From: a virus
Reading direction: 5' to 3' (one strand)
DNA: 22,274 bases
IMG/VR virus record: IMGVR_UViG_3300032093_000929
Location: 1 to 22,274 of that record
In this document: one piece after another, positions 1,202 through 14,512 of the stretch
Layout: every line of letters starts with the position of its first letter
Numbering within the stretch: the stretch's first letter is position 1
Program-made: the position numbers and the translations under genes
Notes under the pieces: model-generated
Seen by the model: the letters and a program-made list of their open reading frames with translations, nothing else
Told to the model about the DNA's origin: nothing
Databases searched by the model: none

Positions 1202-1981
1202 ATGGAAAATTCAAATAATATTTTAGACCCAAATTATGTACCTGAAGATTACAAGGTACCTTATGATATAATAGAATTACCTTCACAAGGTTTATTATAC
1301 CCTAATAAAAAAGCGCAAGTTAAAGTAGAATATTTAACTGCATATGATGAGAATATTTTAACATCCCCAAACATTTTGGCGAATGGTAAAATTATAGATG
1401 TTCTTTTAGAAAGAAAAGTTAAAGATTTAGGTTTCGACCACAAACTTTTATTAGAAGGTGATAGAATGGCAATAATATTATTTTTAAGAGTGTCTGCATT
1501 TGGACCTATTTATCTACAACCAGTAATTGATCCAATAAGTAAAAAAATTGTGGAGGGTGAAGTTGATTTAACTCAATTACAAAATAAAAAATTACTTGTA
1601 AAACCAGACGAACAAGGGTTATTTGATTTCATTTTACCTACTTCTAAAAAGAATATAAAATTCAGATTTCTATCAGGAAAAGATGAAGAAGAAATTGACA
1701 TTTTAGATAATCAATTAATGGAAAGAAATAAAAATGAAATTTCTAATAGAACTACATTAAGGTTAGAAAGATTAATTATGGATATCGATGGTGAAAGAGA
1801 TAAAATAAAAATATCTAATTTACTAAAGGCATTACCTATTATGGATATTAGAAAATTAAATAAATATATTTCTGAAATCGAACCAGGAGTAGATTTCAAA
1901 ACTAGCGCTAGGACTCTGGGGGGAGAGTCCGTTACTACCTTTCTTAGAATCAATAAAAATTTATTTTGGCCTGACATCTAA
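1202..1981 (+). CDS. T4 gp26-like baseplate hub / tail-assembly protein
   Basis: This 259-aa protein resembles the T4_baseplate (gp26-like) family. Near the N-terminus it has an IELPSQGLLYP segment followed by a VEYLTAYDENIL segment. Next come a 'LLEGDRMAIILFLRVSAFG' core and a C-terminus ending in LFWPDI. Members of this family are small proteins needed for baseplate hub or tail-tube assembly. They are usually encoded a little upstream of the tape-measure gene, as here. The ATG at 1202 follows an A/T-rich 36-bp leader with no Shine-Dalgarno sequence. The last 30 codons overlap a second open frame shifted by +1, and codons 240-241 lie in a run of six Gs. A minority of ribosomes may therefore make a longer product of about 301 aa (see 1923-2108). 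Family assignment is by remembered sequence pattern, not by a search. Confidence 0.68.
   Translation: MENSNNILDPNYVPEDYKVPYDIIELPSQGLLYPNKKAQVKVEYLTAYDENILTSPNILANGKIIDVLLERKVKDLGFDHKLLLEGDRMAIILFLRVSAFGPIYLQPVIDPISKKIVEGEVDLTQLQNKKLLVKPDEQGLFDFILPTSKKNIKFRFLSGKDEEEIDILDNQLMERNKNEISNRTTLRLERLIMDIDGERDKIKISNLLKALPIMDIRKLNKYISEIEPGVDFKTSARTLGGESVTTFLRINKNLFWPDI
1911..1930 (+). promoter_or_regulatory. Hairpin with G6 loop: candidate programmed frameshift signal
   Basis: The bases read GGACTCT, then GGGGGG, then AGAGTCC. The two arms are perfect reverse complements of 7 bp, and the loop is the longest G run I noticed in the window. Both are unusual in such A/T-rich DNA. The element lies inside the region where the gp26-like frame and the overlapping +1 frame (open from 1893) are both readable. 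If the glycine tRNA on GGG at 1919-1921 slips forward one base, it re-pairs perfectly with GGG at 1920-1922. Reading then continues at GAG 1923 in the second frame. Confidence 0.55.
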
Positions 1982-2108
1982 CCATCAACAATATCTTTTA
2001 AAAGAAATATTGTTTTTGGTTGGTCGAGGTTTTACATATTCAGATATTCTGATTATGCCAACTTATATGCGTAAATTTTATATTGATTATTTAGTCCCTA
2101 AAGAGTAA
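1923..2108 (+). CDS. Frameshift extension of the gp26-like protein (tail-assembly chaperone 'T'-like, no own start)
   Basis: This open frame runs from 1893 to the stop at 2106-2108, in the +1 frame relative to the gp26-like gene. The coordinates start at the proposed shift point. The part beyond the gp26 stop contains YLLKEILFLVGRGFTYSDIL and then MPTYMRKFYIDYLVPKE. This reads as a genuine protein, with an amphipathic helix, a G-x-T/S-Y-x-(D/E)-I-x-x-MP turn and an aromatic/basic helix. It resembles the small proteins encoded next to gp26 in T4-like phages and the T domains of tail chaperones. No ATG, GTG or TTG codon precedes the core. The first TTG, at 2010, falls inside it. Translation as a fusion by +1 (or -2) frameshifting at 1918-1923 is therefore the most economical reading and would give about 301 aa. 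Alternatives are initiation at a rare codon, or a one-base error in the G run that splits a single gene. Confidence 0.55.
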   Translation, partial: ESPLLPFLESIKIYFGLTSNHQQYLLKEILFLVGRGFTYSDILIMPTYMRKFYIDYLVPKE

Positions 2109-2656: not shown

Positions 2657-2803
2657 ATGTTAGAAAATTTAGGAAATAATGTAAAAAAAATTGTTAATAA
2701 TTCAGTTCAAAAAACTGAAATTAATGAAATAGTAAAAATTTTTGAAAAAATAAAAAAAGATTTTGAAAAAATAAAAGAGGATTTTGAAAAAAATAAAAAG
2801 TAA
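2657..2803 (+). CDS. Small 48-aa coiled-coil peptide
   Basis: This short frame starts at ATG 2657, seven bases after the previous stop. Its TAA shares an A with the ATG of the tape-measure gene (TAATG), so the two are probably translationally coupled. The product starts MLENLGNNVKKIVNNSV and ends with three near-identical heptads, FEKIKKD, FEKIKED and FEKNKK. These predict a strongly charged amphipathic helix. It resembles no family I can name. A role in binding the tape measure, whose own N-terminus is also coiled coil, is conceivable. The neat fit between two genes supports it being translated. The strong Lys/Glu bias means chance cannot be fully excluded. Confidence 0.6.
   Translation: MLENLGNNVKKIVNNSVQKTEINEIVKIFEKIKKDFEKIKEDFEKNKK
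2741..2800 (+). repeat. 21-bp tandem repeat encoding heptads
   Basis: Two full copies and one shortened copy of a 21-bp unit, each starting TTTGAAAA, lie at 2741-2761, 2762-2782 and 2783-2800. They keep the reading frame of the 48-aa peptide and encode its three heptads, so they look like expansion within a coiled coil. Confidence 0.7.
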
Positions 2804-4761
2804 TGAGTTCACCTGCAACACAAGATGATATAGAAAAATTAAAGGAACAGATAAAGGATCTTAATGAAAGAATCGATGAGTTAACTGGAAACATGTCCAA
2901 ACTTAAAAAAGAAAGTGAAGAGTTTAATGGACGTATTGGGGATAGTAATGACTTATTAGGTGATGCAGTTCTGAAAGTGAGAGACATGGGTAAAGAATTT
3001 AGAAAATTTGCCACCGATACAAAAGCCCAATACCAATTAGCAGAAGGTTTAGCGGAAAAAAGTAAAGAAACTGCGGTAAATATTGGTATTTCTGTTGGTA
3101 GAAGTCAACAATTTACAAAAGAATTTAATAGGGCAACTGCTGAAGTTACTAAATTTGGTGGTTCAATGAACGATGTCGCGGGTATTATGGAAGAAATGAG
3201 TGATAAAAGTGGTAGGGCTAGAATTATTTCATCTGAAGAAGTAGGGAATATTTTTAAAATTTCAAAATCATTAGCACTTGATAAAGATTCAGTAGCTCAA
3301 ATGGCAGAACGTTTCGATTTAATGGGTGTGAGTTCAGAAAAATTTTATGAACATATAAATCAAATGACTATAGATAGTCAAAAATTAGGATTAAATTCTA
3401 AAAAAGTTGGTGAAGCTCTACAAAATAACTTTGAAACTATGTCTAATATGTCATTTAAAAATGGTGTCAAAGGTATGACCGAAATGGCAAAGTTAGCAGT
3501 CCAAATGAGAATGGATGTTCAGGATATGTTAACAATGGCAGGAAAATTCTACAACCCTGAAGATGCAATAAATGCAGCTGCCGAATTACAACTTTTAGGT
3601 GGTGATATTGCAGAGGCGTTTGGTGATCCTTTTGAGACTATGTATTTGGCTAGAAACAAACCAGAAGAATTAGCTAAAAAGGTTTCAAAAATGACTGAAA
3701 ATATGATTCAGTTTAATGAAGAAACAGGTGAGTATGAATTACCTGCAGAAGCAAGACAACAATTTGAAGCATTAGCAAAAACAATTGGTGGAACTGCAGA
3801 TGACTTAATTGATATGTCTAGACAGGCAGCTAAAATTAAAGACATCAAGATGAACGTTTCTGGAAATATCACCGATGAAGATATGAGGGAAGGTTTGGCT
3901 GGTATGGCTAAAATGAAAGATGGTAAATGGGTAGTAGATTTTAAAGGAGAACAATTAGATATTGGCGATATTGGTATGGATCAAGCTGCAGAAATTTTGG
4001 CAGCACCAAAAGATTCAGATGATGCTATAATGGATATTGCAATGAATTCAATGACTACCAATCAAATATTAACAAATATTTTAGCGGCAATGAAAACTGG
4101 TTATGTCGCAGAAAAAAATGTATATGAAATAAGTGAAGATATTCTTAGACCAAGTATGAGATCACTTACTGAGGGCGTTGAAGGTCAAGTTGAAAAAGTA
4201 ATACAAAAACTTCAAGATACTCCTATTGGGGATATTAGAAAATTAATGTTAGAACAAGGAAGGGCATTAGGTTTAGAATCTGGAGAAAAAATAAAACAAG
4301 TATTCGAAATAGATATGTCCGAAGAACTTATAGATTTAGTAGAAAAACTACCTAAACTTAAAATGGACCTTGATGAAATTTTAAATAAAGTTAGACTTGA
4401 TGGTGAATCAGTTGAAAAAACTGGTGAAGAACATAATGATTTTATGTTAAGGTCTTCAGGTGAAATTACGAGTTTTACTAATGAAGATGATATTATTGGT
4501 GCAAAAAAAGGTGGACCATTAGATAAATTAATGGATAAAAGTTTATCATCAAATAATATTGGTGGTGTACCCTCAAAAATAGAGTTTGGTACATTGGATA
4601 TATCAGGTAGAATTGAACTTGTTTCTCCAAATGGTTCTATTAGTAATATTGATATGGAATCATTAAAACCTATGATACAAAAAACAGTTATATCTCACTT
4701 AAATGGTACATTTAGAAATGGTGGAGTACCTTCAAGTAAAGAGTCAACAGATGTAATGTAA
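2803..4761 (+). CDS. Tail tape-measure-like protein (gp29 role)
   Basis: This 652-aa protein is largely alpha-helical and Met-rich. It begins with a coiled coil at about residues 7-45 (DDIEKLKEQIKDLNERIDEL). A long polar helical body follows, with repeated MAKLA, MAGKF and AAELQLL-type segments. A Gly/Ser-rich linker precedes a compact C-terminal beta/helix piece at about 600-640 (DISGRIELVSPNGSI). Tape-measure proteins span the tail tube and set its length. At about 1.5 angstrom per helical residue, 652 aa would span a little under 100 nm, close to T4 (gp29, 590 aa). No obvious transmembrane segment or peptidase motif is visible. Supporting context is the upstream gp26-like frameshift pair and the downstream baseplate tube, wedge and hub genes. 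The start overlaps the preceding stop as TAATG. The assignment rests on length, composition and gene order. Confidence 0.68.
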   Translation: MSSPATQDDIEKLKEQIKDLNERIDELTGNMSKLKKESEEFNGRIGDSNDLLGDAVLKVRDMGKEFRKFATDTKAQYQLAEGLAEKSKETAVNIGISVGRSQQFTKEFNRATAEVTKFGGSMNDVAGIMEEMSDKSGRARIISSEEVGNIFKISKSLALDKDSVAQMAERFDLMGVSSEKFYEHINQMTIDSQKLGLNSKKVGEALQNNFETMSNMSFKNGVKGMTEMAKLAVQMRMDVQDMLTMAGKFYNPEDAINAAAELQLLGGDIAEAFGDPFETMYLARNKPEELAKKVSKMTENMIQFNEETGEYELPAEARQQFEALAKTIGGTADDLIDMSRQAAKIKDIKMNVSGNITDEDMREGLAGMAKMKDGKWVVDFKGEQLDIGDIGMDQAAEILAAPKDSDDAIMDIAMNSMTTNQILTNILAAMKTGYVAEKNVYEISEDILRPSMRSLTEGVEGQVEKVIQKLQDTPIGDIRKLMLEQGRALGLESGEKIKQVFEIDMSEELIDLVEKLPKLKMDLDEILNKVRLDGESVEKTGEEHNDFMLRSSGEITSFTNEDDIIGAKKGGPLDKLMDKSLSSNNIGGVPSKIEFGTLDISGRIELVSPNGSISNIDMESLKPMIQKTVISHLNGTFRNGGVPSSKESTDVM

Positions 4762-4940: not shown

Positions 4941-7900
4941 ATGGCAGGAATATTAGATTATAGTAAAGGTATATATTCTACACAAGGATTTAGAGATAGT
5001 CTATTGAATAGAAATTTACCTCCACCAGTTAATGAAACTTTAACTCAGGCAGGATTAGTTTCTAAATTACAAGATATAGGTACAGTAATAAGTGTGCCTG
5101 TTAATGGTGAGGCAAATGAAAATATACCTGTCCATTACGATGTAAATAAAAGATTATTCCCGTTAGGTAATTTTTATAGAGTTACACAGAATGTTAATTT
5201 AAACAGATATATTCCACAAGATGAAATATATGAAGTTTATGAATTAACTTACCCTATTAATTTAGGTTATCCATTACCTGAAGGTTTTGGTGAAAAAGTA
5301 AGAGATGATTATCCAATATCATATAATCAAGAACAATTTTTTTTAGTTAATAAAGGTGATCAAAAAGGTGTTAAATTTCCATTTAATGTAATTGATACAT
5401 ATAAATCATTAAATTTCCAAAAAGAAAGTTCATTAGGGTTAATAGGTGGTCAACAATTAGAAAAAACTATAATAGATAAAATCGCACAAGTTTCTGAAGA
5501 AGTTGGTAACTCTAATAAAAAAACAGGGTATATTACAGAACCAATTGATAATATTGTTGACAATTTCGTTAATAAATTAAGAGGTAATGATCAATTCTTC
5601 AATACTCTACCAAATAATGCAGTTGGGTGGAATGAATATAATAGTAGTGCAAAATCAGGTTCAGAATTATTAAAATCAGATTTAGATATACAAGAAGGTG
5701 TTGAACCTACTATGACCACTGAAGTAAGGATGAATACTTTATTAAGTAGGACTAGTACAACACAAGTATCATTTGCGTTTAACTTATTAAATAGAAATGA
5801 CTACAGACCATTATATGAAGATAGAAGATTAGAAGGTACATCAGACGCAGGTTTAAATGAGAGATACTATATAGGTAATGAGAAAAATACTAATAGAGGT
5901 AATAGAATAACTAAAAAATTTAATAGTGATGACTTTAATGGTGGGCCTGATACATCAGGAAACGCTAAAAGAACTACAATTGAGGGAGTAGGAGAACCTT
6001 TTGGTGAACCAAATAAATTTTTCTGGGCAACAGGTGGTGAACAAAATTTTAATGAAAAAACTTTATTATATAAAACACAACAATTAGTTGATAATAATCA
6101 AAATGATGTGTTTATTAATCAAACTAAAAAGTATTTTAAAGATAAAGAACAAGGTAGAATTATAAGTAGGGGTAATGCAATTAAAACTCTTGATTTAATA
6201 GATATAGATGGTAATGGTAATTTTTGTAGAGTTTGGACTGTTAATGATAGATATAGTTATGCAAACGCTATAAGAAATACAGGTTTATTTTTCTCACCTG
6301 ACAAAGACTTACAAGGTTTTTCAGTTACTAATGGTAAAGCGTCTCAAAGTGTATTGATGGATAATGGTATACCTAAGTACCATCCTGTATTATCAGATTC
6401 CTCAACTACTCGTAAAAAATTTATGTTATCCATAGAAAATTTGGCTTGGGCAGATAACTTAGCAGATTTACCATTGAGTGAAATTGGTCCTGGAGATATT
6501 TTAAATGGGAACAAAGGTAGAATAATGTGGTTTCCACCATATGAATTAACTTTTGATGAAAATACTAGTGCGAATTGGAATAAAAATGAATTTATAGGTA
6601 GAAGTGAACCTGTTTATACATATAATAATTCTAGTAGGTCAGGACAATTAGGTTTTAAAATAATTGTCGATCACCCTAGAGTTATAAATTGTTATAGAGG
6701 AAACTCTACAAACCTTACTGAAAGATTCTTTGCGGGTTGTGCTACACCTGAAGAGTTTTTAAGGGCATTAGAATGTTCAGTAACCCAAAGTGACTTAGAA
6801 GAAATAAAGAAGAAAATTTATGAAAAAAAACCTCAAAAAACTGTAGATGTTGAAAGTAAAGATGATGATGGTACAGTATTACTTGATCAGATAAAAGATT
6901 GTGATTCTAAAACTGAAAATTGTAAGGCAAAAAGAATACCAAATGAAGATAATTTAAATTCAATAGTATCAAAAATAAAAACATTTGTAGAAAAACAAAG
7001 TGGTAACACTAACCCAAAAGTTAAAATTACATTAAACGGATGGGTAGGAAAGGGTGCTACTGTAGATAAAAGCGGAGAACCAACAAGTGATAATGGTACA
7101 AAATTAAGTAAAGAATTTGCGGATAAAGTTAAAACAGAAATTGAATCTAAATTAAATTCTTCGGGTATTGACACAAAATTATTATCTAATATAAGTCCTA
7201 TTGTGACTAAAGGTAATATTGCGGCAAATACTGAAAATGAAAATGATTATAGGGTTCATGTAAAAATGGAAAATGATACCCAAAATTCTGATCAAACTAA
7301 ACCAAAAGACGAAGATAAAGGAGATGGTGCAGGTAGTTTTGATCCTGAAGATATTAGATTAGTAGATAATTTAATTATCGATGAGGGGGCATATTTTGAT
7401 TACATTGATGAAAATTACCCTAATTATTTTAAATATATTTCTGCAAAAATAAAATATTTCCATCCTGGATTTCATAGTATTACACCAGAAGGTTTTAATA
7501 GTAGACTAACTTTTTTAAATCAGTGTATGAAACAAGGTCCGAGTATATATGATAGAAAAACTTTAAAAGATGGAACTGAGGTTGGGGTTCAACCACAAAA
7601 CTTATCTTTTGGTAGACCACCAATTTGTATATTAAGAATAGGTGATTTTTTCCACACTAAAATTGTTATAAATAGTTTATCTATAACTTATGATGGACCT
7701 CAATGGGATCTTAACCCTGAAGGTATAGGGGTACAACCTATGATTGCTACAGTATCTTTAAGTATTGATTATATTGGCGGACATTCTTTAGTTGGACCAC
7801 TTAATAGATTACAAAACGCAGTTTCATTTAATTATTATGCGAATACAGAAATGTACGATGTTAGATCTGATAGTATCGATTCGTCTACAGGTAAAGTAGT

Positions 7901-8543
7901 AGATGGGGTAAAATTAGGTGAACTTAAAAAAGGTTTAGTTGGTGAAAAGAATTTAGAAAAATATATCGAATCACTTAAAAAAGAAGGTATCGTTGATCAA
8001 ACAAAAGAAAATGAGAATGCTAATGGTGCAAAAACTACTGAAAATACAGGAGTATTAGAAATTGCAATAAAAGATAAAAATAGTGTAGTTATAAAAACCA
8101 AAGACGGTAAGAAACCAGGAGATATTGAAATTGATGGTAAAAAAGAAAGTAAGAATAGTATTGTTGGGGAAATATCTGTTGGTAACACTAAAGTAAATGA
8201 AAAACCTGATAGTGAAACATCTGAAGTAGTAATAAATGTTTTATCTGTGGATAAGTTTGAAGGTAAAATTATGTTACCTGAAACACTGAAAAATTTAGAG
8301 ACTGCCGTTGCAGAAAAACAAAAGGAATTAGATGATTTAATTGCGCTTGCTAAAATTGATCCTACTGTAAAAAATTCTGAAATAAGGAAAGCAGAAAATG
8401 ACTTAAAAGATCAACAAAAAAATTTAGAAAAATATAAATCATCTGCTTCTGACAAAGTTACTGTAGTTGCTTATTTAGATAAAAATAAAAAAACAACTAC
8501 TGTGAGTAAAACATTTACAATCACTCAAAATGGGTTAAATTAA
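4941..8543 (+). CDS. Large baseplate / tail-tube-junction protein with OmpA-like segment
   Basis: This 1200-aa protein looks modular. Residues 1-400 are Asn- and Tyr-rich with many short beta-like segments. About 525-585 contains GRIMWFPPYELTFDENTSA, reminiscent of tube or baseplate beta-barrels. About 669-775 looks OmpA-like, with a beta strand ITLNGWVG, then DNGTKLSKEFADKVKTEI and SSGID, as in peptidoglycan-binding OmpA domains. About 800-975 (DFFHTKIVINSLSITYDGPQ, then IATVSLSIDYIGGHSL) resembles tail-tube-like domains of baseplate hub and tube-initiator proteins. The last 100 residues include a coiled coil near 1105-1165 and a beta-rich tail. In T4 the genes after the tape measure encode gp48 and gp54, the tube cap and initiator. 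That role fits position and the 800-975 domain, but the protein is about three times longer. It lies 5 bp before the gp53-like gene. Confidence 0.6.
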   Translation: MAGILDYSKGIYSTQGFRDSLLNRNLPPPVNETLTQAGLVSKLQDIGTVISVPVNGEANENIPVHYDVNKRLFPLGNFYRVTQNVNLNRYIPQDEIYEVYELTYPINLGYPLPEGFGEKVRDDYPISYNQEQFFLVNKGDQKGVKFPFNVIDTYKSLNFQKESSLGLIGGQQLEKTIIDKIAQVSEEVGNSNKKTGYITEPIDNIVDNFVNKLRGNDQFFNTLPNNAVGWNEYNSSAKSGSELLKSDLDIQEGVEPTMTTEVRMNTLLSRTSTTQVSFAFNLLNRNDYRPLYEDRRLEGTSDAGLNERYYIGNEKNTNRGNRITKKFNSDDFNGGPDTSGNAKRTTIEGVGEPFGEPNKFFWATGGEQNFNEKTLLYKTQQLVDNNQNDVFINQTKKYFKDKEQGRIISRGNAIKTLDLIDIDGNGNFCRVWTVNDRYSYANAIRNTGLFFSPDKDLQGFSVTNGKASQSVLMDNGIPKYHPVLSDSSTTRKKFMLSIENLAWADNLADLPLSEIGPGDILNGNKGRIMWFPPYELTFDENTSANWNKNEFIGRSEPVYTYNNSSRSGQLGFKIIVDHPRVINCYRGNSTNLTERFFAGCATPEEFLRALECSVTQSDLEEIKKKIYEKKPQKTVDVESKDDDGTVLLDQIKDCDSKTENCKAKRIPNEDNLNSIVSKIKTFVEKQSGNTNPKVKITLNGWVGKGATVDKSGEPTSDNGTKLSKEFADKVKTEIESKLNSSGIDTKLLSNISPIVTKGNIAANTENENDYRVHVKMENDTQNSDQTKPKDEDKGDGAGSFDPEDIRLVDNLIIDEGAYFDYIDENYPNYFKYISAKIKYFHPGFHSITPEGFNSRLTFLNQCMKQGPSIYDRKTLKDGTEVGVQPQNLSFGRPPICILRIGDFFHTKIVINSLSITYDGPQWDLNPEGIGVQPMIATVSLSIDYIGGHSLVGPLNRLQNAVSFNYYANTEMYDVRSDSIDSSTGKVVDGVKLGELKKGLVGEKNLEKYIESLKKEGIVDQTKENENANGAKTTENTGVLEIAIKDKNSVVIKTKDGKKPGDIEIDGKKESKNSIVGEISVGNTKVNEKPDSETSEVVINVLSVDKFEGKIMLPETLKNLETAVAEKQKELDDLIALAKIDPTVKNSEIRKAENDLKDQQKNLEKYKSSASDKVTVVAYLDKNKKTTTVSKTFTITQNGLN

Positions 8544-8881: not shown

Positions 8882-11800
8882 ATGGACCCTAAAGTAGATA
8901 AAATTGGTAAAGCATTTATTGTTGATCCAAACCCGCCAGGTATGGAAATAGTTCCGCCAGAAGATTTATTCATTTATGTTAAATTTTCTGCTTACCCTAG
9001 AAGTAGGGTAACTTATGGTGGTGAGAATAAAACTTTTAATAGTGGTATAGAAGATGAAGTTCATTTCATATCAACTAATTTAAAATATAATAGTCAAACA
9101 GGTAAATTAGATCCTACATTACAAAAATCTTATGCGACTACTGATTGGACAAATATCGGTGGATTTTCTAAAGATGTGAAATCAAGAAGTGCTGGTGCTT
9201 TAGAGGGGTTTGGTATTAAATCTATTGATATAAAATATAATTCTAGTTTAGTACCTACAGTAGATATTACATTTACAGATGTTAGAGGTGGTGCATTGTT
9301 CGATGTTATTAAAGATGATGATAGATTATCACCTTATAGTATATTTTTTAAAATGCCTTATCCAGTTTTTAACCTATCAATTAAAGGATATTTTGGACAA
9401 AAAGTTGATTTTTGTTTACATATGGTTAATTGGACATCTAGTTTTGATGGTTCGACAGGTAATTTTGATATTAGTGCAAATTTTTTAGGATTCCAACAAG
9501 CATTTTTAAATGATATGGTTTTAGGTAACATAATAGGTGTGATAAACACACCTGAAGGTTATAATAAATTAAATAAAATTTATGATGAAAGTAATTCACA
9601 AATTGGTTCTTCCGATTTAAATGGTAAAACTTTAGAAGAGATTAGAAAAAATGGTGATTTAAATATAAGAAAAATAGATGATTTTTTTACTCAAATAAGT
9701 AAATTACAAGTACAATCTGAAATTATAAAAACAGATTTAGATAGTTTTAAGTTATTAAAAGATTTAAATGGAAAATTAAGTTTATTAAAAACAATTAGAA
9801 CTTTTATCGGTTCTCCTATATTGAAAGAGGCGGAGAATAATAGTAATGGTAGTAGTCAAAAAAATCAACAAACTAAATCTTATTTAGAAACTGATAATAG
9901 AAAAGATCAAATACAGACATCACCTATAAAAGATGATGAGTTGATTATTAATAATAATTATTTATCTATACGTGATTACATTATTTTTAATTCAGTTAAT
10001 AGGTTAGCATTTAAATCTTATGTTAGCACATTAAATTCAATAATATTAAAATATCAAGAATATATTAATACTACAGAAAAAACTGTAAAAGATGAAGTAA
10101 AAGATAAAAATTTGATAGAATCTTTTAAATCTATAGGTGATGAGAATAATTGGGAAAATTTTATTGTATCACCGACATTAAATGCTAGTGGTAAACCTGA
10201 TTTTAAAAAATTACAAAACGTATTAGAAGATTTATATACTTCAGGGTCAACAATATATTTAATTAAACCTTATGTTGGTGGACCTGAAGTAAATACTGGT
10301 TTTGATGTGGGTTCTTTTATAAAAAGGGTAAATGAAAGAAATTTTTATGCACCTAAAACAAAATTATTAGAATCAACAAATGTATTGATTGCAGATTTTA
10401 GAAAACAAAGAACTTTATTAGAAGATATTATAATAGATTTAGAATCTATTATAAAAGTACAAAAAGAAAAAGTACAAGAAGAATTAAATAAAAAATTATT
10501 AGAGAATTTTAGATCAGAATTAAAAGTTAATTTTGACCCTACAATTGGTAAATGTTTTGAGATTATTGCAAATAATACACAAGCAATGGTTGAAACTGTT
10601 TATGATATTAGTCAGGCAGCGGAACAGAAATCTATTTCTAGTAATAGACAGAGTGTATTAAAAACTTATGAAACTGACGTTCCAACAGGAATAGATGGGG
10701 TTGCTTGGCCTTCAATATACCAAAAAAATGATAAGGGGGACATTCAAGAAATATATGTGGGTGAAATAACTGGTGTTAATACATCAGATTTCCCTGAATG
10801 GGATTTTGTTGAAAGGGTTTTTGAAAACTTAGTGGGTAAAACTAAACAATTAGAAGATGTTAGTAAATCTTCTATATTAAAAAATGGTTTAGATACTGAC
10901 AATTGGTTTCCTATTAACCCTATTGATTATAGTATAAATCCTTGGATAAAATTAAATTCTTTAAATGACGTTAAAAAAATAGGTAATGAATTAGTTGAAA
11001 AATTTTTTACTAGAATTGCGTTATTAGATAACTATACAAGATATTCCCCTAATACTGGATTAAAAGACATTGATAGTTACGCTAGATTAGAATCTATTGC
11101 GGCAAATAAAACAATTTTTTCAGAAAAGGCTAGACAAATAATATCTAATATATTGATAGATATAGACACTCAAATTAATGCAACTGGTTCTATTTTTGTT
11201 CCTGATGATAAATTTGATTTAAAAAAATGTAAGTTCTATACCGATTTTATTTTAGAAGAACCTAATAACTATATTATTAGTGAAGAGAATAGTTTTCAAA
11301 AAATAGGGAATTTTAAAATAAGTGGTACGTTTTCTGATAAAGTAGATTATATTTTATTTGATGATCCGTCTATCATTAATAATAGTAAAAAATTATTTCA
11401 AGAAATAAAAGACGATGAAACATATAGAAAATTTGCAGATAAAAAATCTAGTCCACCAAGTAAAGAATTTAAAACCAATCTATTCTTTAAAAATTTTATT
11501 TCTAGTGCAAATAATCTAACAACATATAATTCTTTTAATGTTTGGTTTGATGATGTTTGTAATAACATTCTTAAATCTAGTGATAATGAAATATTAGGTA
11601 ATTTAAATAAATGTAAAATAATTGATTTTAATCCAGGTCTTTCTACATTAAATAATTCGAGTGGTTCTACATATAATAGTAAATATATTAATATGACATA
11701 TTTTAGACAGAATACTAATACTTCTGTTGATTATGAAGATATTATGACATATTCAGAACTATACGATAAACAAAGTTCTAATTACGCTAGGGCATTATTA

Positions 11801-14512
11801 TTGTTATCTACATTCCCGTTCAAAAATTTTAAAAAAGGGTTTTTAGAGTCTGTTTTTGATACCAAAGTATTTGATGGGGCGAGAGTAATTAATTTACCTA
11901 AATTATATGTTTATTATATTGGGGCATTATTGTGGAGATATGAGGAATCTATAAATCTTGTGGATCCATTAAAATTCACTTTCTCAACAGGAAAAGATTA
12001 TTCTAATTTTAGTTCTCCCGCAAATTCTTATTTATATAAGGTAGGACATAGATTAACCACAAATGTTACAACAGAACCATTAGAAGATGAATTAATTAAT
12101 TTACCTAAATCGGTTAAAGATAAACTTATTAATAAATTTAAGAGTTGGGTGGATAGTGATAATTTTAACAATAGTAAAAATGGTTTTTTTGAAAGATCAG
12201 TAAAATTATATGTACCTGATTTAATTACCCAAACTACCCTAACTACACAAGAACAAGATTTAGCTCAAAATAATATTTTTACTAAATTAAAAGAAACTAC
12301 AGATTTAATTTTATTGAATCCTGATATTTTTGATAATGTTAAGATTGCACAACTAAGTCAAAATAAAGGATTGATTGTAGATAAATCATTATTGAAAAAA
12401 TATGTTAGTAATTTTAAACAAAAGTTTAATGAGGTAGGTAAAGAAAATGATAATGGTAAAAAAGAAGGTAATGAAGAAAAAAAAGATGATAATAAAAGTA
12501 CAAATATTATAAAATTACAACTTTATAATTATTTTAAAAATATAAGTAATAAATGGATAGGTAATAGCGGTTCTTTTAGTATATGTGGAGATTCTTCTGA
12601 TAAAAATTTATTTGAATATTTTAAATTTATAGATAGAGGTTGGAGATTTATTGGGGATGAAGCAACATTTAATTTAAAAAGTTTTCTTTCTTTAGGTAGT
12701 AATTTAAATACTAGTGTTTATTTCTTTATGTCTAAACTTTTAAGAGACAGTAATTTTCTTTTCCAAATATTACCTACATATATTAATTTTAAAAGTGCTA
12801 CTGAAGTCGCTAAGATATTCCAACCACAAACGGTATTAGAAAATAATGATTCTTCAGGACCTATATTTTGTTGTATTTGGGTTGGTGGGGCATCACAAGC
12901 GTTAGATATTGGTGAGAGAAGTAATTATTATTTTAAAGATGACGGATTTAGTTTAACTACAGGTAATATTCCTTCAGATATTGTTGATGAAAATAAATCA
13001 GATACTATTAATAATCAAGGTGATATTGATTTAGGTGATTCTTCTTTAGTCGCATTTAGAGTTTCATTTGGGGCACAAAATCAGACAGTTTTTAAAAATG
13101 TTTCATTAAGTCAACAGGAACATAGAGAGACAGGGGAATATTTTAAAGCATTATCTGATTTAGTAGATAAAAGAGGTGGTACCCAAAAAGCATATGTAGG
13201 TACAGATTTATTAAGATTATTTAAAACTAGATCATATACTTGTAAAGTTGAGGCTATGGGATGTATGAATATACAACCATTAATGTATTTCGATTTACAA
13301 AATGTTCCATTTTTTAATGGTGCATATCTTATAACTAGTGTTAGCCATAACATAACACCAAACCAAATGTCTACTAGTTTTGAGGGGTTAAGACAATCAA
13401 AATATATAACATCACCTTCAAAACAGATTACTGCGGATTTAGATATAGATTTAAATGAAAGTAGTGAGACACCAAAAATAGAGTTCACTAATCTTAATAA
13501 TAAAAATGAAATATTTAGTATAGGTGTTTTAAACCCTACAGATTTATTTGATTATCAGAAAAACTTTGGTGTTGGTACTGTAGCAAATGTGGATGAGGGT
13601 GTTAATAAATTTAAAAATATTGGTGTTACTACTTTTACTGATCAAAAATTAAGAGAAGTAATAAATGATTTAGAAAGTAAAATGAAATTCAATAACATTT
13701 TGACTAATTCACAAGTTACTATGTTTTTATCTGCAATTCTTTCTAATTCAGAAAATTTATCCAAAAGTGAAATTTCTTGGGATGTGGAAAACAAAGAGAC
13801 ATATGTAGATAAATTCCCTAGTACTGATCCTATAAATCCTGATAAAATTAAATATTACGGAAAATCAAATTCTTCAGATAAATATTTGTCATATTTACCT
13901 ATTTTTACGGGTGGGTCAGTTAACAATATTGCTTATGACGGTAAATTTCCTGGTAACGATACATTAAAAGAGTATTCAATAAATGATCAGATTGAAGGAA
14001 GAAAACAAGATATAAATAATAGGATATCTAAATTAGATGTTAATGACCCAAAACAAAAATCTGAAAAAGATACTTTAGAAAAAGAATTAAAAGATTTAAC
14101 TAAACAGGAAGAAAATTTAATTAAGACTACTAAATATTATAACATATTTGAGGGTGATGCCTATAGATATAAACCTAGAGGTTATTTATATGTTATTGGT
14201 AGAAAACAATACTATGATATATATGGTGACTCAGGTTTGGCAGAACCTACAATTGCATCATCAGGAGAACCTTCTACTATATTGACTAGTTTAAAAGTTT
14301 GGAATTATTTAAAAGATGGTGATAAAAATGCGTATGATTATTCTTCATTACCATCTGGTTCGGCATCAATATATAGTAAGTGTATAAATTTAACACATCA
14401 ATATAGTCCAAAGGGGTTAGAAAATGCCTTTACTACTTTTGAAAAAGTATTGACTACCTTTGTTGATAAAAATAATCAACCACTTATTAATTATTTTAAT
14501 CCAGGACCTTAA
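8882..14512 (+). CDS. Giant baseplate hub protein with C-terminal GH19-like muralytic domain
   Basis: This 1876-aa protein has a gp27/gp44-like hub layout. Residues 20-215 form beta-rich segments ending in a conserved-looking FLGFQQAFLNDMVLGNIIG. A long charged helical middle spans about 260-620, and more unassigned sequence follows. At 1391-1512 is a hub D-like domain (VEAMGCMNIQPLMYFDLQ, then GAYLITSVSHNITPNQM). Residues 1600-1876 resemble GH19 chitinase/lysozyme domains. TMFLSAILSNSENLS has Glu1624 at the place of the catalytic acid. Residues 1763-1778 (YKPRGYLYVIGRKQYY) match the GRGxxQLTGRxNY signature. A coiled coil of about 50 residues (1701-1750) separates these two motifs. The likely role is the central spike-hub carrying a lysin that opens peptidoglycan on injection, as gp27 plus gp5 do in T4. 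The first Gly of GRG is Pro, so activity is uncertain. Confidence 0.62.
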   Translation: MDPKVDKIGKAFIVDPNPPGMEIVPPEDLFIYVKFSAYPRSRVTYGGENKTFNSGIEDEVHFISTNLKYNSQTGKLDPTLQKSYATTDWTNIGGFSKDVKSRSAGALEGFGIKSIDIKYNSSLVPTVDITFTDVRGGALFDVIKDDDRLSPYSIFFKMPYPVFNLSIKGYFGQKVDFCLHMVNWTSSFDGSTGNFDISANFLGFQQAFLNDMVLGNIIGVINTPEGYNKLNKIYDESNSQIGSSDLNGKTLEEIRKNGDLNIRKIDDFFTQISKLQVQSEIIKTDLDSFKLLKDLNGKLSLLKTIRTFIGSPILKEAENNSNGSSQKNQQTKSYLETDNRKDQIQTSPIKDDELIINNNYLSIRDYIIFNSVNRLAFKSYVSTLNSIILKYQEYINTTEKTVKDEVKDKNLIESFKSIGDENNWENFIVSPTLNASGKPDFKKLQNVLEDLYTSGSTIYLIKPYVGGPEVNTGFDVGSFIKRVNERNFYAPKTKLLESTNVLIADFRKQRTLLEDIIIDLESIIKVQKEKVQEELNKKLLENFRSELKVNFDPTIGKCFEIIANNTQAMVETVYDISQAAEQKSISSNRQSVLKTYETDVPTGIDGVAWPSIYQKNDKGDIQEIYVGEITGVNTSDFPEWDFVERVFENLVGKTKQLEDVSKSSILKNGLDTDNWFPINPIDYSINPWIKLNSLNDVKKIGNELVEKFFTRIALLDNYTRYSPNTGLKDIDSYARLESIAANKTIFSEKARQIISNILIDIDTQINATGSIFVPDDKFDLKKCKFYTDFILEEPNNYIISEENSFQKIGNFKISGTFSDKVDYILFDDPSIINNSKKLFQEIKDDETYRKFADKKSSPPSKEFKTNLFFKNFISSANNLTTYNSFNVWFDDVCNNILKSSDNEILGNLNKCKIIDFNPGLSTLNNSSGSTYNSKYINMTYFRQNTNTSVDYEDIMTYSELYDKQSSNYARALLLLSTFPFKNFKKGFLESVFDTKVFDGARVINLPKLYVYYIGALLWRYEESINLVDPLKFTFSTGKDYSNFSSPANSYLYKVGHRLTTNVTTEPLEDELINLPKSVKDKLINKFKSWVDSDNFNNSKNGFFERSVKLYVPDLITQTTLTTQEQDLAQNNIFTKLKETTDLILLNPDIFDNVKIAQLSQNKGLIVDKSLLKKYVSNFKQKFNEVGKENDNGKKEGNEEKKDDNKSTNIIKLQLYNYFKNISNKWIGNSGSFSICGDSSDKNLFEYFKFIDRGWRFIGDEATFNLKSFLSLGSNLNTSVYFFMSKLLRDSNFLFQILPTYINFKSATEVAKIFQPQTVLENNDSSGPIFCCIWVGGASQALDIGERSNYYFKDDGFSLTTGNIPSDIVDENKSDTINNQGDIDLGDSSLVAFRVSFGAQNQTVFKNVSLSQQEHRETGEYFKALSDLVDKRGGTQKAYVGTDLLRLFKTRSYTCKVEAMGCMNIQPLMYFDLQNVPFFNGAYLITSVSHNITPNQMSTSFEGLRQSKYITSPSKQITADLDIDLNESSETPKIEFTNLNNKNEIFSIGVLNPTDLFDYQKNFGVGTVANVDEGVNKFKNIGVTTFTDQKLREVINDLESKMKFNNILTNSQVTMFLSAILSNSENLSKSEISWDVENKETYVDKFPSTDPINPDKIKYYGKSNSSDKYLSYLPIFTGGSVNNIAYDGKFPGNDTLKEYSINDQIEGRKQDINNRISKLDVNDPKQKSEKDTLEKELKDLTKQEENLIKTTKYYNIFEGDAYRYKPRGYLYVIGRKQYYDIYGDSGLAEPTIASSGEPSTILTSLKVWNYLKDGDKNAYDYSSLPSGSASIYSKCINLTHQYSPKGLENAFTTFEKVLTTFVDKNNQPLINYFNPGP

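Follow-up and report, generated by a model that had tools for sequence, protein, structure and literature searches.

The tail assembly chaperones G and G-T of phage lambda, reportedly described by Xu, Hendrix and Duda, are a close counterpart of the locus analysed here. Like the gp26/gp51-like family considered below, lambda uses one gene, located upstream of the tape measure, to make a short and a long product through a programmed frameshift near its 3' end, with a C-terminal domain present in the minor product only. However, lambda shifts by -1, while the present family, from contractile-tailed phages of the T4 type, would shift by +1 at UUU-Y; the two are likened by arrangement and not by sequence. 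A review describes G-T frameshifting as a conserved trait of long-tailed phages, "except T4" (PMC5009743). The same review lists +1 frameshifts in Listeria phage PSA and in the archaeal myovirus HSTV-2, with which the present family would share the +1 recoding of a tail or structural gene, although the PSA shift, at CCC, affects major proteins and the one predicted here a chaperone. A further likeness is found in prfB (RF2), where a pyrimidine-rich codon slips by +1 with a Shine-Dalgarno (SD)-like G run a few bases upstream. Unlike prfB, which has a stop codon in the A site, a spacing of 3 nt and autoregulation as its outcome, the gp26/gp51 family has no A-site stop, a spacing of 5 nt and a product ratio as its predicted outcome.

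For T4 itself, gp26 and gp51 appear among the chaperones listed for hub assembly, with gp51 described as essential, of unknown function and absent from the particle (PMC3004832). Cyanophage gp51 has been described as only about 20% of full length, with the first ~200 residues missing (PMC3037559). No published report of frameshifting in the gp26/gp51 family was found in the open-access papers searched, and some deposited records already name gp26/gp51 "tape measure chaperones".

The window—the whole stretch of 22,274 nt analysed here, from a virus record of IMG/VR—is a 22-kb record with T4-type genes, including those for gp32, a RecA/UvsX-like protein, a DnaB/gp41-like protein and a 5'-3' exonuclease. 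One gene with a short product and a frame-shifted longer one is apparent in this phage and in about 300 relatives. We consider it highly probable that the gene encodes a T4 gp26/gp51-type tape-measure (hub) assembly chaperone, made as a 259-residue short form and, by a +1 slip on UUU, as a minor long form of 301 residues (255 + 46). The role of tape-measure chaperone is suggested by homology and gene order. Most ribosomes would terminate at 1979-1981 and release the short form; in a minority, tRNA-Phe would slip forward by one base on UUU while UGG waits in the A site, and these ribosomes would read on to 2108 to yield the long form. Its extra ~45 residues would be the domain found at the C-terminus of T4 gp51, and recoding would set how much short form is made per long form, as for lambda G and G-T. 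Like those genes, the locus holds an overlapping second frame without a start of its own and a slippery site at the junction.

The gp26-like gene and its overlapping frame

Table 1. Coordinates of the features discussed, numbered from the first base of the window.
Feature	Position	Strand	Description	Basis
T4 gp26/gp51-like gene	1202..1981	+	259-aa 0-frame product; short form, G-like	PHROG 150, alignments of relatives, AF2/BFVD
Open +1-frame stretch with C-terminal extension	1893..2108	+	no usable start	frame kept in 198 loci; pN/pS
Candidate hairpin	1911..1930	+	7 bp, GGACTCT-GGGGGG-AGAGTCC, G run as loop; ends 33 nt upstream of slip codon	compensatory changes
Proposed +1 slip site	1964..1967	+	UUU-U	cognate +1 re-pairing class in permitted interval, 198/198 loci
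Predicted extension after slip	1968..2108	+	46 codons, GLTSNHQQYLLKEILFLVGRGFTYSDILIMPTYMRKFYIDYLVPKE	homologous to T4 gp51 C-terminus
Probable tape-measure gene	2803..4761	+	652 aa	location; weak similarity to the protein annotated as tape measure in phage immuto

The 0-frame product ends in NLFWPDI. In profile searches it matches PHROG 150 ("baseplate hub", E 1.3e-5) and has no direct Pfam match; PF12322 matches its relatives L003 (4e-15; L numbers designate loci) and SP-15 (1.5e-28). AlphaFold2 (AF2) models were made for this form and for a T4-type gp51. The model of the window protein (pLDDT 89) matches baseplate hub and hub assembly proteins in BFVD, among them the SP-15 hub protein with a TM-score of 0.78/0.82.

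As the first-pass annotation implied, the gene lies upstream of a probable tape-measure gene, with an intervening ORF of 169 residues (2141-2650). The similarity of the tape-measure candidate to the annotated protein of immuto is weak (E 5e-5, from one pairwise comparison), and in both immuto and LIS04 the gp26-like gene is directly upstream of the tape measure by annotation. Downstream of the candidate, in the place of baseplate genes, two large ORFs (4941-8543, 1200 residues, and 8882-14512, 1876 residues) have no Pfam matches.

The first-pass annotation had described the overlapping frame exactly: it opens behind a TAG at 1890-1892 and closes with a stop at 2106-2108. It had also stated that no ATG, GTG or TTG precedes the protein-like core. 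ATG and GTG are indeed absent, but the statement is off by one codon for TTG, the first of which (2010-2012) lies within the domain, one codon ahead of the residues FLVGRG, where a start would remove the first helix.

Relatives were taken from phage isolates and from IMG/VR, and the gene end was located in 207 loci. A +1-frame ORF extends at least 100 nt beyond the 0-frame stop in 189 of 198 loci; the other frame is open over that length in 14 of 205. Among non-redundant homologues the proportion rises to 125 of 126, compared with 42 of 336 other genes of the same loci (12.5%). Past the stop, pN/pS in the +1 frame is 0.14/0.60 in the clade of the window and 0.18/0.66 in that of immuto; in the other two frames non-synonymous change exceeds synonymous change and stops are abundant. 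These counts, together with pN/pS in that frame, show that the overlap is no chance event, that the extension is coding and that its relation to the upstream frame is conserved. A sequencing or assembly artefact, or the decay of a single-frame gene, might be suspected in a single metagenomic contig with G and T runs, but the same frame relation recurs in isolates and independent contigs (~190 of the latter and isolates together) under purifying selection; the homologues refute this explanation, which retains practically no probability. Two loci with an apparent -1 relation within +1 clades (L070 and L080) may reflect contig indels. With the extension alone as query, too short for the purpose, tblastn against phage records gave no convincing match.

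The arrangement had been presented as a case of A/T-rich phages, probably of Bacteroidota. It is not peculiar to them: the +1 form occurs in phages of Flavobacterium, Microcystis, Bacillus (SP-15), Listeria (LIS04) and Streptococcus (GXN1), as well as in huge uncultured phages, and the hosts of the wider family include Synechococcus.

A second reading of the overlap is that the extension is made as a small protein of its own, from a cryptic or non-standard start or by termination-reinitiation, and acts in trans with the short form. It has some support from start codons. In L197 and L202, nested among +1 frameshifters, the extension is a gene of its own with an ATG and ~35 extra N-terminal residues, and in the Vibrio phages D507 and VAP7 it is likewise a separate ATG gene, which brings the loci of this kind to four; in several cyanophage loci an ATG lies just 3' of the gp26 stop. 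Some ATG, GTG or TTG is present in the overlapping frame of 149 of the 198 +1 loci, all three being absent from only 49, and since TTG or GTG occurs somewhere in that frame in many, some +1 loci may hold weak internal starts. These codons, however, vary in position and kind, and ATG is lacking ahead of the core in the window and in the isolates Syn10 and Syn33. This reading is considered unlikely, also for two reasons given below. Homologues with separate genes and clear starts, which the first-pass annotation had named as evidence against a fusion, are limited to the few loci just listed, and the frameshift reading stands.

The proposed slip site and its surroundings

The shift is permitted between the last upstream +1-frame stop and the 0-frame stop. 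Each of the 198 +1-extension loci holds UUU and then U or C within this interval, including those where it is narrowest (23 nt in L187-L195, GGC TTC TTT TGG CCT GAC GAA). The motif nearly always encodes (F)F-W/R-P, as in TTT TTT TGG CCT, TTT CTT TGG CCT, TTT TTT CGT CCT and TTA TTT TGG CCT. In the window it is part of FFWPD, where the P-site UUU at 1964-1966 would re-pair at 1965-1967 with UGG as the A-site codon. In tests of RF2, UUU has been placed in the next tier of slippery codons (PMC10885494). Both the occurrence of slippage, +1 on UUU, and its rate are predictions from sequence, as is stimulation by the elements described below. Either UUU-Y or, in the relatives treated in the next section, U_UUU_UUC is invariant, although reinitiation at a separate small gene does not need them.

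The same frame would be reached by a -2 slip, as in Mu. The frame alone cannot distinguish the two, and the runs of seven T found at many loci would tolerate -2. Yet in several loci a -2 slip would move the P-site tRNA onto a codon with which it does not pair, such as UAU in the window (TTA TTT TGG) or UCU in L187 (TTC TTT TGG), whereas a +1 slip leaves it on a cognate codon in 198 of 198 loci, which makes -2 slippage quite improbable. Transcriptional slippage at the T run, which would join the frames in the mRNA, is less probable still: the seven-T runs at many sites speak for it, but the run counts only four T in the window and three in the immuto clade (TTTCTTTGG), and the frame is kept regardless.

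Other sites for a +1 shift on the ribosome were also considered. The first-pass annotation implied slippage at the G run, ~40 nt upstream of the proposed UUU-U site. This is contradicted by close relatives (L008, L009, L011 and L014) with a +1-frame TAA directly 3' of that run, and the G run is therefore excluded as the place of the shift. A Ty1-like CUU-AGA (CTT AGA, 1943-1948) is present in the window clade only and absent from distant relatives; it is not needed, and is at most a possible helper. A shift driven by a stop codon, in the style of prfB, was rejected, the position of the 0-frame stop being variable. The A-site codons at the proposed slip differ as well (UGG, CUU, CGU and others), and no single "hungry codon" can therefore account for the slowing of the ribosome. 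With the G run set aside, what the first-pass annotation observed is confirmed and its interpretation is partly supported: the 259- and 301-residue G/G-T-like products are well backed by frame conservation, pN/pS and the slip motif.

Two elements are candidate stimulators, each associated with particular clades. A conserved Gly lies about three codons ahead of the first UUU; of 76 Gly codons at a distance of two to three codons, 42 read GGG, compared with 11% in the gene body (p 7e-20). This GGG forms an SD-like GGGG, separated by 5 nt from the slip codon. The window and its clade are without it. The hairpin of the window, which holds the G run in its loop, has compensatory changes in L010, L016 and L018, with a covariation score of 0.235 that none of 500 shuffles equalled. 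Lying upstream, distant enough for refolding behind the ribosome, it is a possible stimulator in the window clade. The perfect 7-bp form with its G6 loop covaries in about ten close relatives (L008-L012 and L016-L019) and is absent from more distant ones. The 81-nt region around the G run folds no more stably than its shuffles (z 0.22), and no conserved 3' structure was seen, individual folds varying among the relatives.

The -1 relatives, T4 gp26/gp51 and duplicated copies

In 80 cyanophage-type loci and in the Desulfovibrio phage 7757, the Stenotrophomonas phage YB07 and the Vibrio phage D490, the extension is found in the -1 frame, with U_UUU_UUC at the FF codons. Among the non-redundant cyanophage-type relatives, the FF motif is TTT TTC in 65 of 65, and the 60 preceding Ser codons are all TCT or AGT. 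U_UUU_UUC/U is also found in Atu_ph07, PA5oct, RAS14 and LR756511. Several jumbo phages thus have this proposed -1 site in common with the cyanophages, and the hosts of the -1 group comprise Synechococcus/Prochlorococcus, Desulfovibrio, Stenotrophomonas, Vibrio, Agrobacterium and Pseudomonas.

Cyanophage gp26 and "gp51" hold the same two domains and the same FF junction as the window family, the ~200 residues missing from "gp51" being the gp26 frame. They differ from that family in a predicted -1 shift at U_UUU_UUC, in place of +1, and in the annotation of the extension as a separate truncated gene. Public records place the start of the extension at an internal Met or omit it altogether in L314 (Syn33, 1462-1599), L313 (Syn10, after 1423), L001 (3857-3967) and L007 (3635-3754); these are probably mis-annotations.

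T4 gp26 and gp51 both match PF12322 (9e-64 and 4e-52) as well as PHROG 150. T4 gp51 aligns across the join with the +1 fusions (E 9e-7) and with the -1 fusions (5.5e-18), and the two kinds of fusion align with each other (1.2e-17), all as pairwise E-values that are not database-calibrated. By hhalign, the extension alone matches the gp51 C-terminus in its +1 and -1 versions (3.2e-5 and 7e-9; reversed controls 0.14-0.46), and the +1 extension matches that of the cyanophages (2.4e-7). The model of a T4-type gp51 (pLDDT 89) ends, after the motif helix, in helices at residues 208-247. Its BFVD matches, many of them shared with the window model, include gp26, the SP-15 protein and a "tape measure chaperone". 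Neither gp26 nor gp51 has a match among PDB chains by sequence or fold, the T4 gp51 model having no fold match.

The T4 proteins (PF12322, PHROG 150/634) are homologous to the products of the window family, gp26 corresponding to the short form and gp51 to the fusion, C-terminal domain included. By sequence the two are paralogues, gp51 holding short form and extension in one frame. In the tree they group together (96/85), as sister to the -1 frameshifters (100/98), and their genes lie divergently. This homology and the alignments across the join indicate that T4 makes the two forms from two divergently transcribed paralogous genes without a frameshift, in contrast to the one gene and recoding of the window family.

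A second duplication has been observed within the +1 group. L071 (3001-4531), L316 and L317 have the gp26-like gene twice in tandem: first a short copy, which lacks the extension, and then a long copy whose N-terminal segment is coiled-coil-like. In L316 and L317 the long copy is complete, with the extension in the same frame; it falls among the +1 phages in a tree that omits their short copy, and its grouping with gp51 is rejected (p-AU 4e-11). Twice independently, the extension has thus come to be joined in one frame to an additional copy of the main domain, which argues for the fusion as the functional long product and against a small protein made on its own. The sequences show that frame, extension and slip motif are conserved, and that the fusion is homologous across the join to one-frame proteins, namely T4 gp51 and copy 2 of L316 and L317.

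One junction in several arrangements

A wider reading, which we regard as probable though with less assurance than that of the window gene, is that T4-type contractile tails descend from an ancestral state with frameshift-coded short and long chaperones. At the same conserved FF codons, the shift would have changed direction between +1 (UUU-Y) and -1 (U_UUU_UUY), with clade-specific stimulators (the SD-like GGGG, or the 5' hairpin with its G6 loop behind the ribosome), and recoding would have given way to duplication into a short copy and an in-frame long copy at least twice, in the T4 lineage and in that of L316 and L317. The +1, -1, split and duplicated loci would then form a natural series of answers to one stoichiometry problem.

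The frameshift reading joins three separate statements: the exception made for T4 (PMC5009743), the truncated cyanophage gp51 (PMC3037559) and the hub chaperones of T4 (PMC3004832). The data indicate that the relatives of T4 use G/G-T-like frameshifting; the apparent exception of T4 looks like gene duplication, and the "truncated" cyanophage gp51, on these data, like the second half of a frameshift fusion. A role is thereby proposed for a widely mis-annotated overlapping ORF, two proteins are predicted to be co-made in a fixed ratio, and the puzzling hub chaperones gp26 and gp51 become directly testable.

Two variants of the locus stand apart. In L028, L029, L031, L034, L037, L039, L041, L045, L046 and L054, the gp26-like frame starts 130-200 codons earlier than that of the window, as if an upstream domain were fused to it. 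In the Rhodothermus phage RM378 (L207, 2998-3880), a +1 extension at FFW has a sequence unlike the usual domain, and the adjoining tail tube gene is on the opposite strand.
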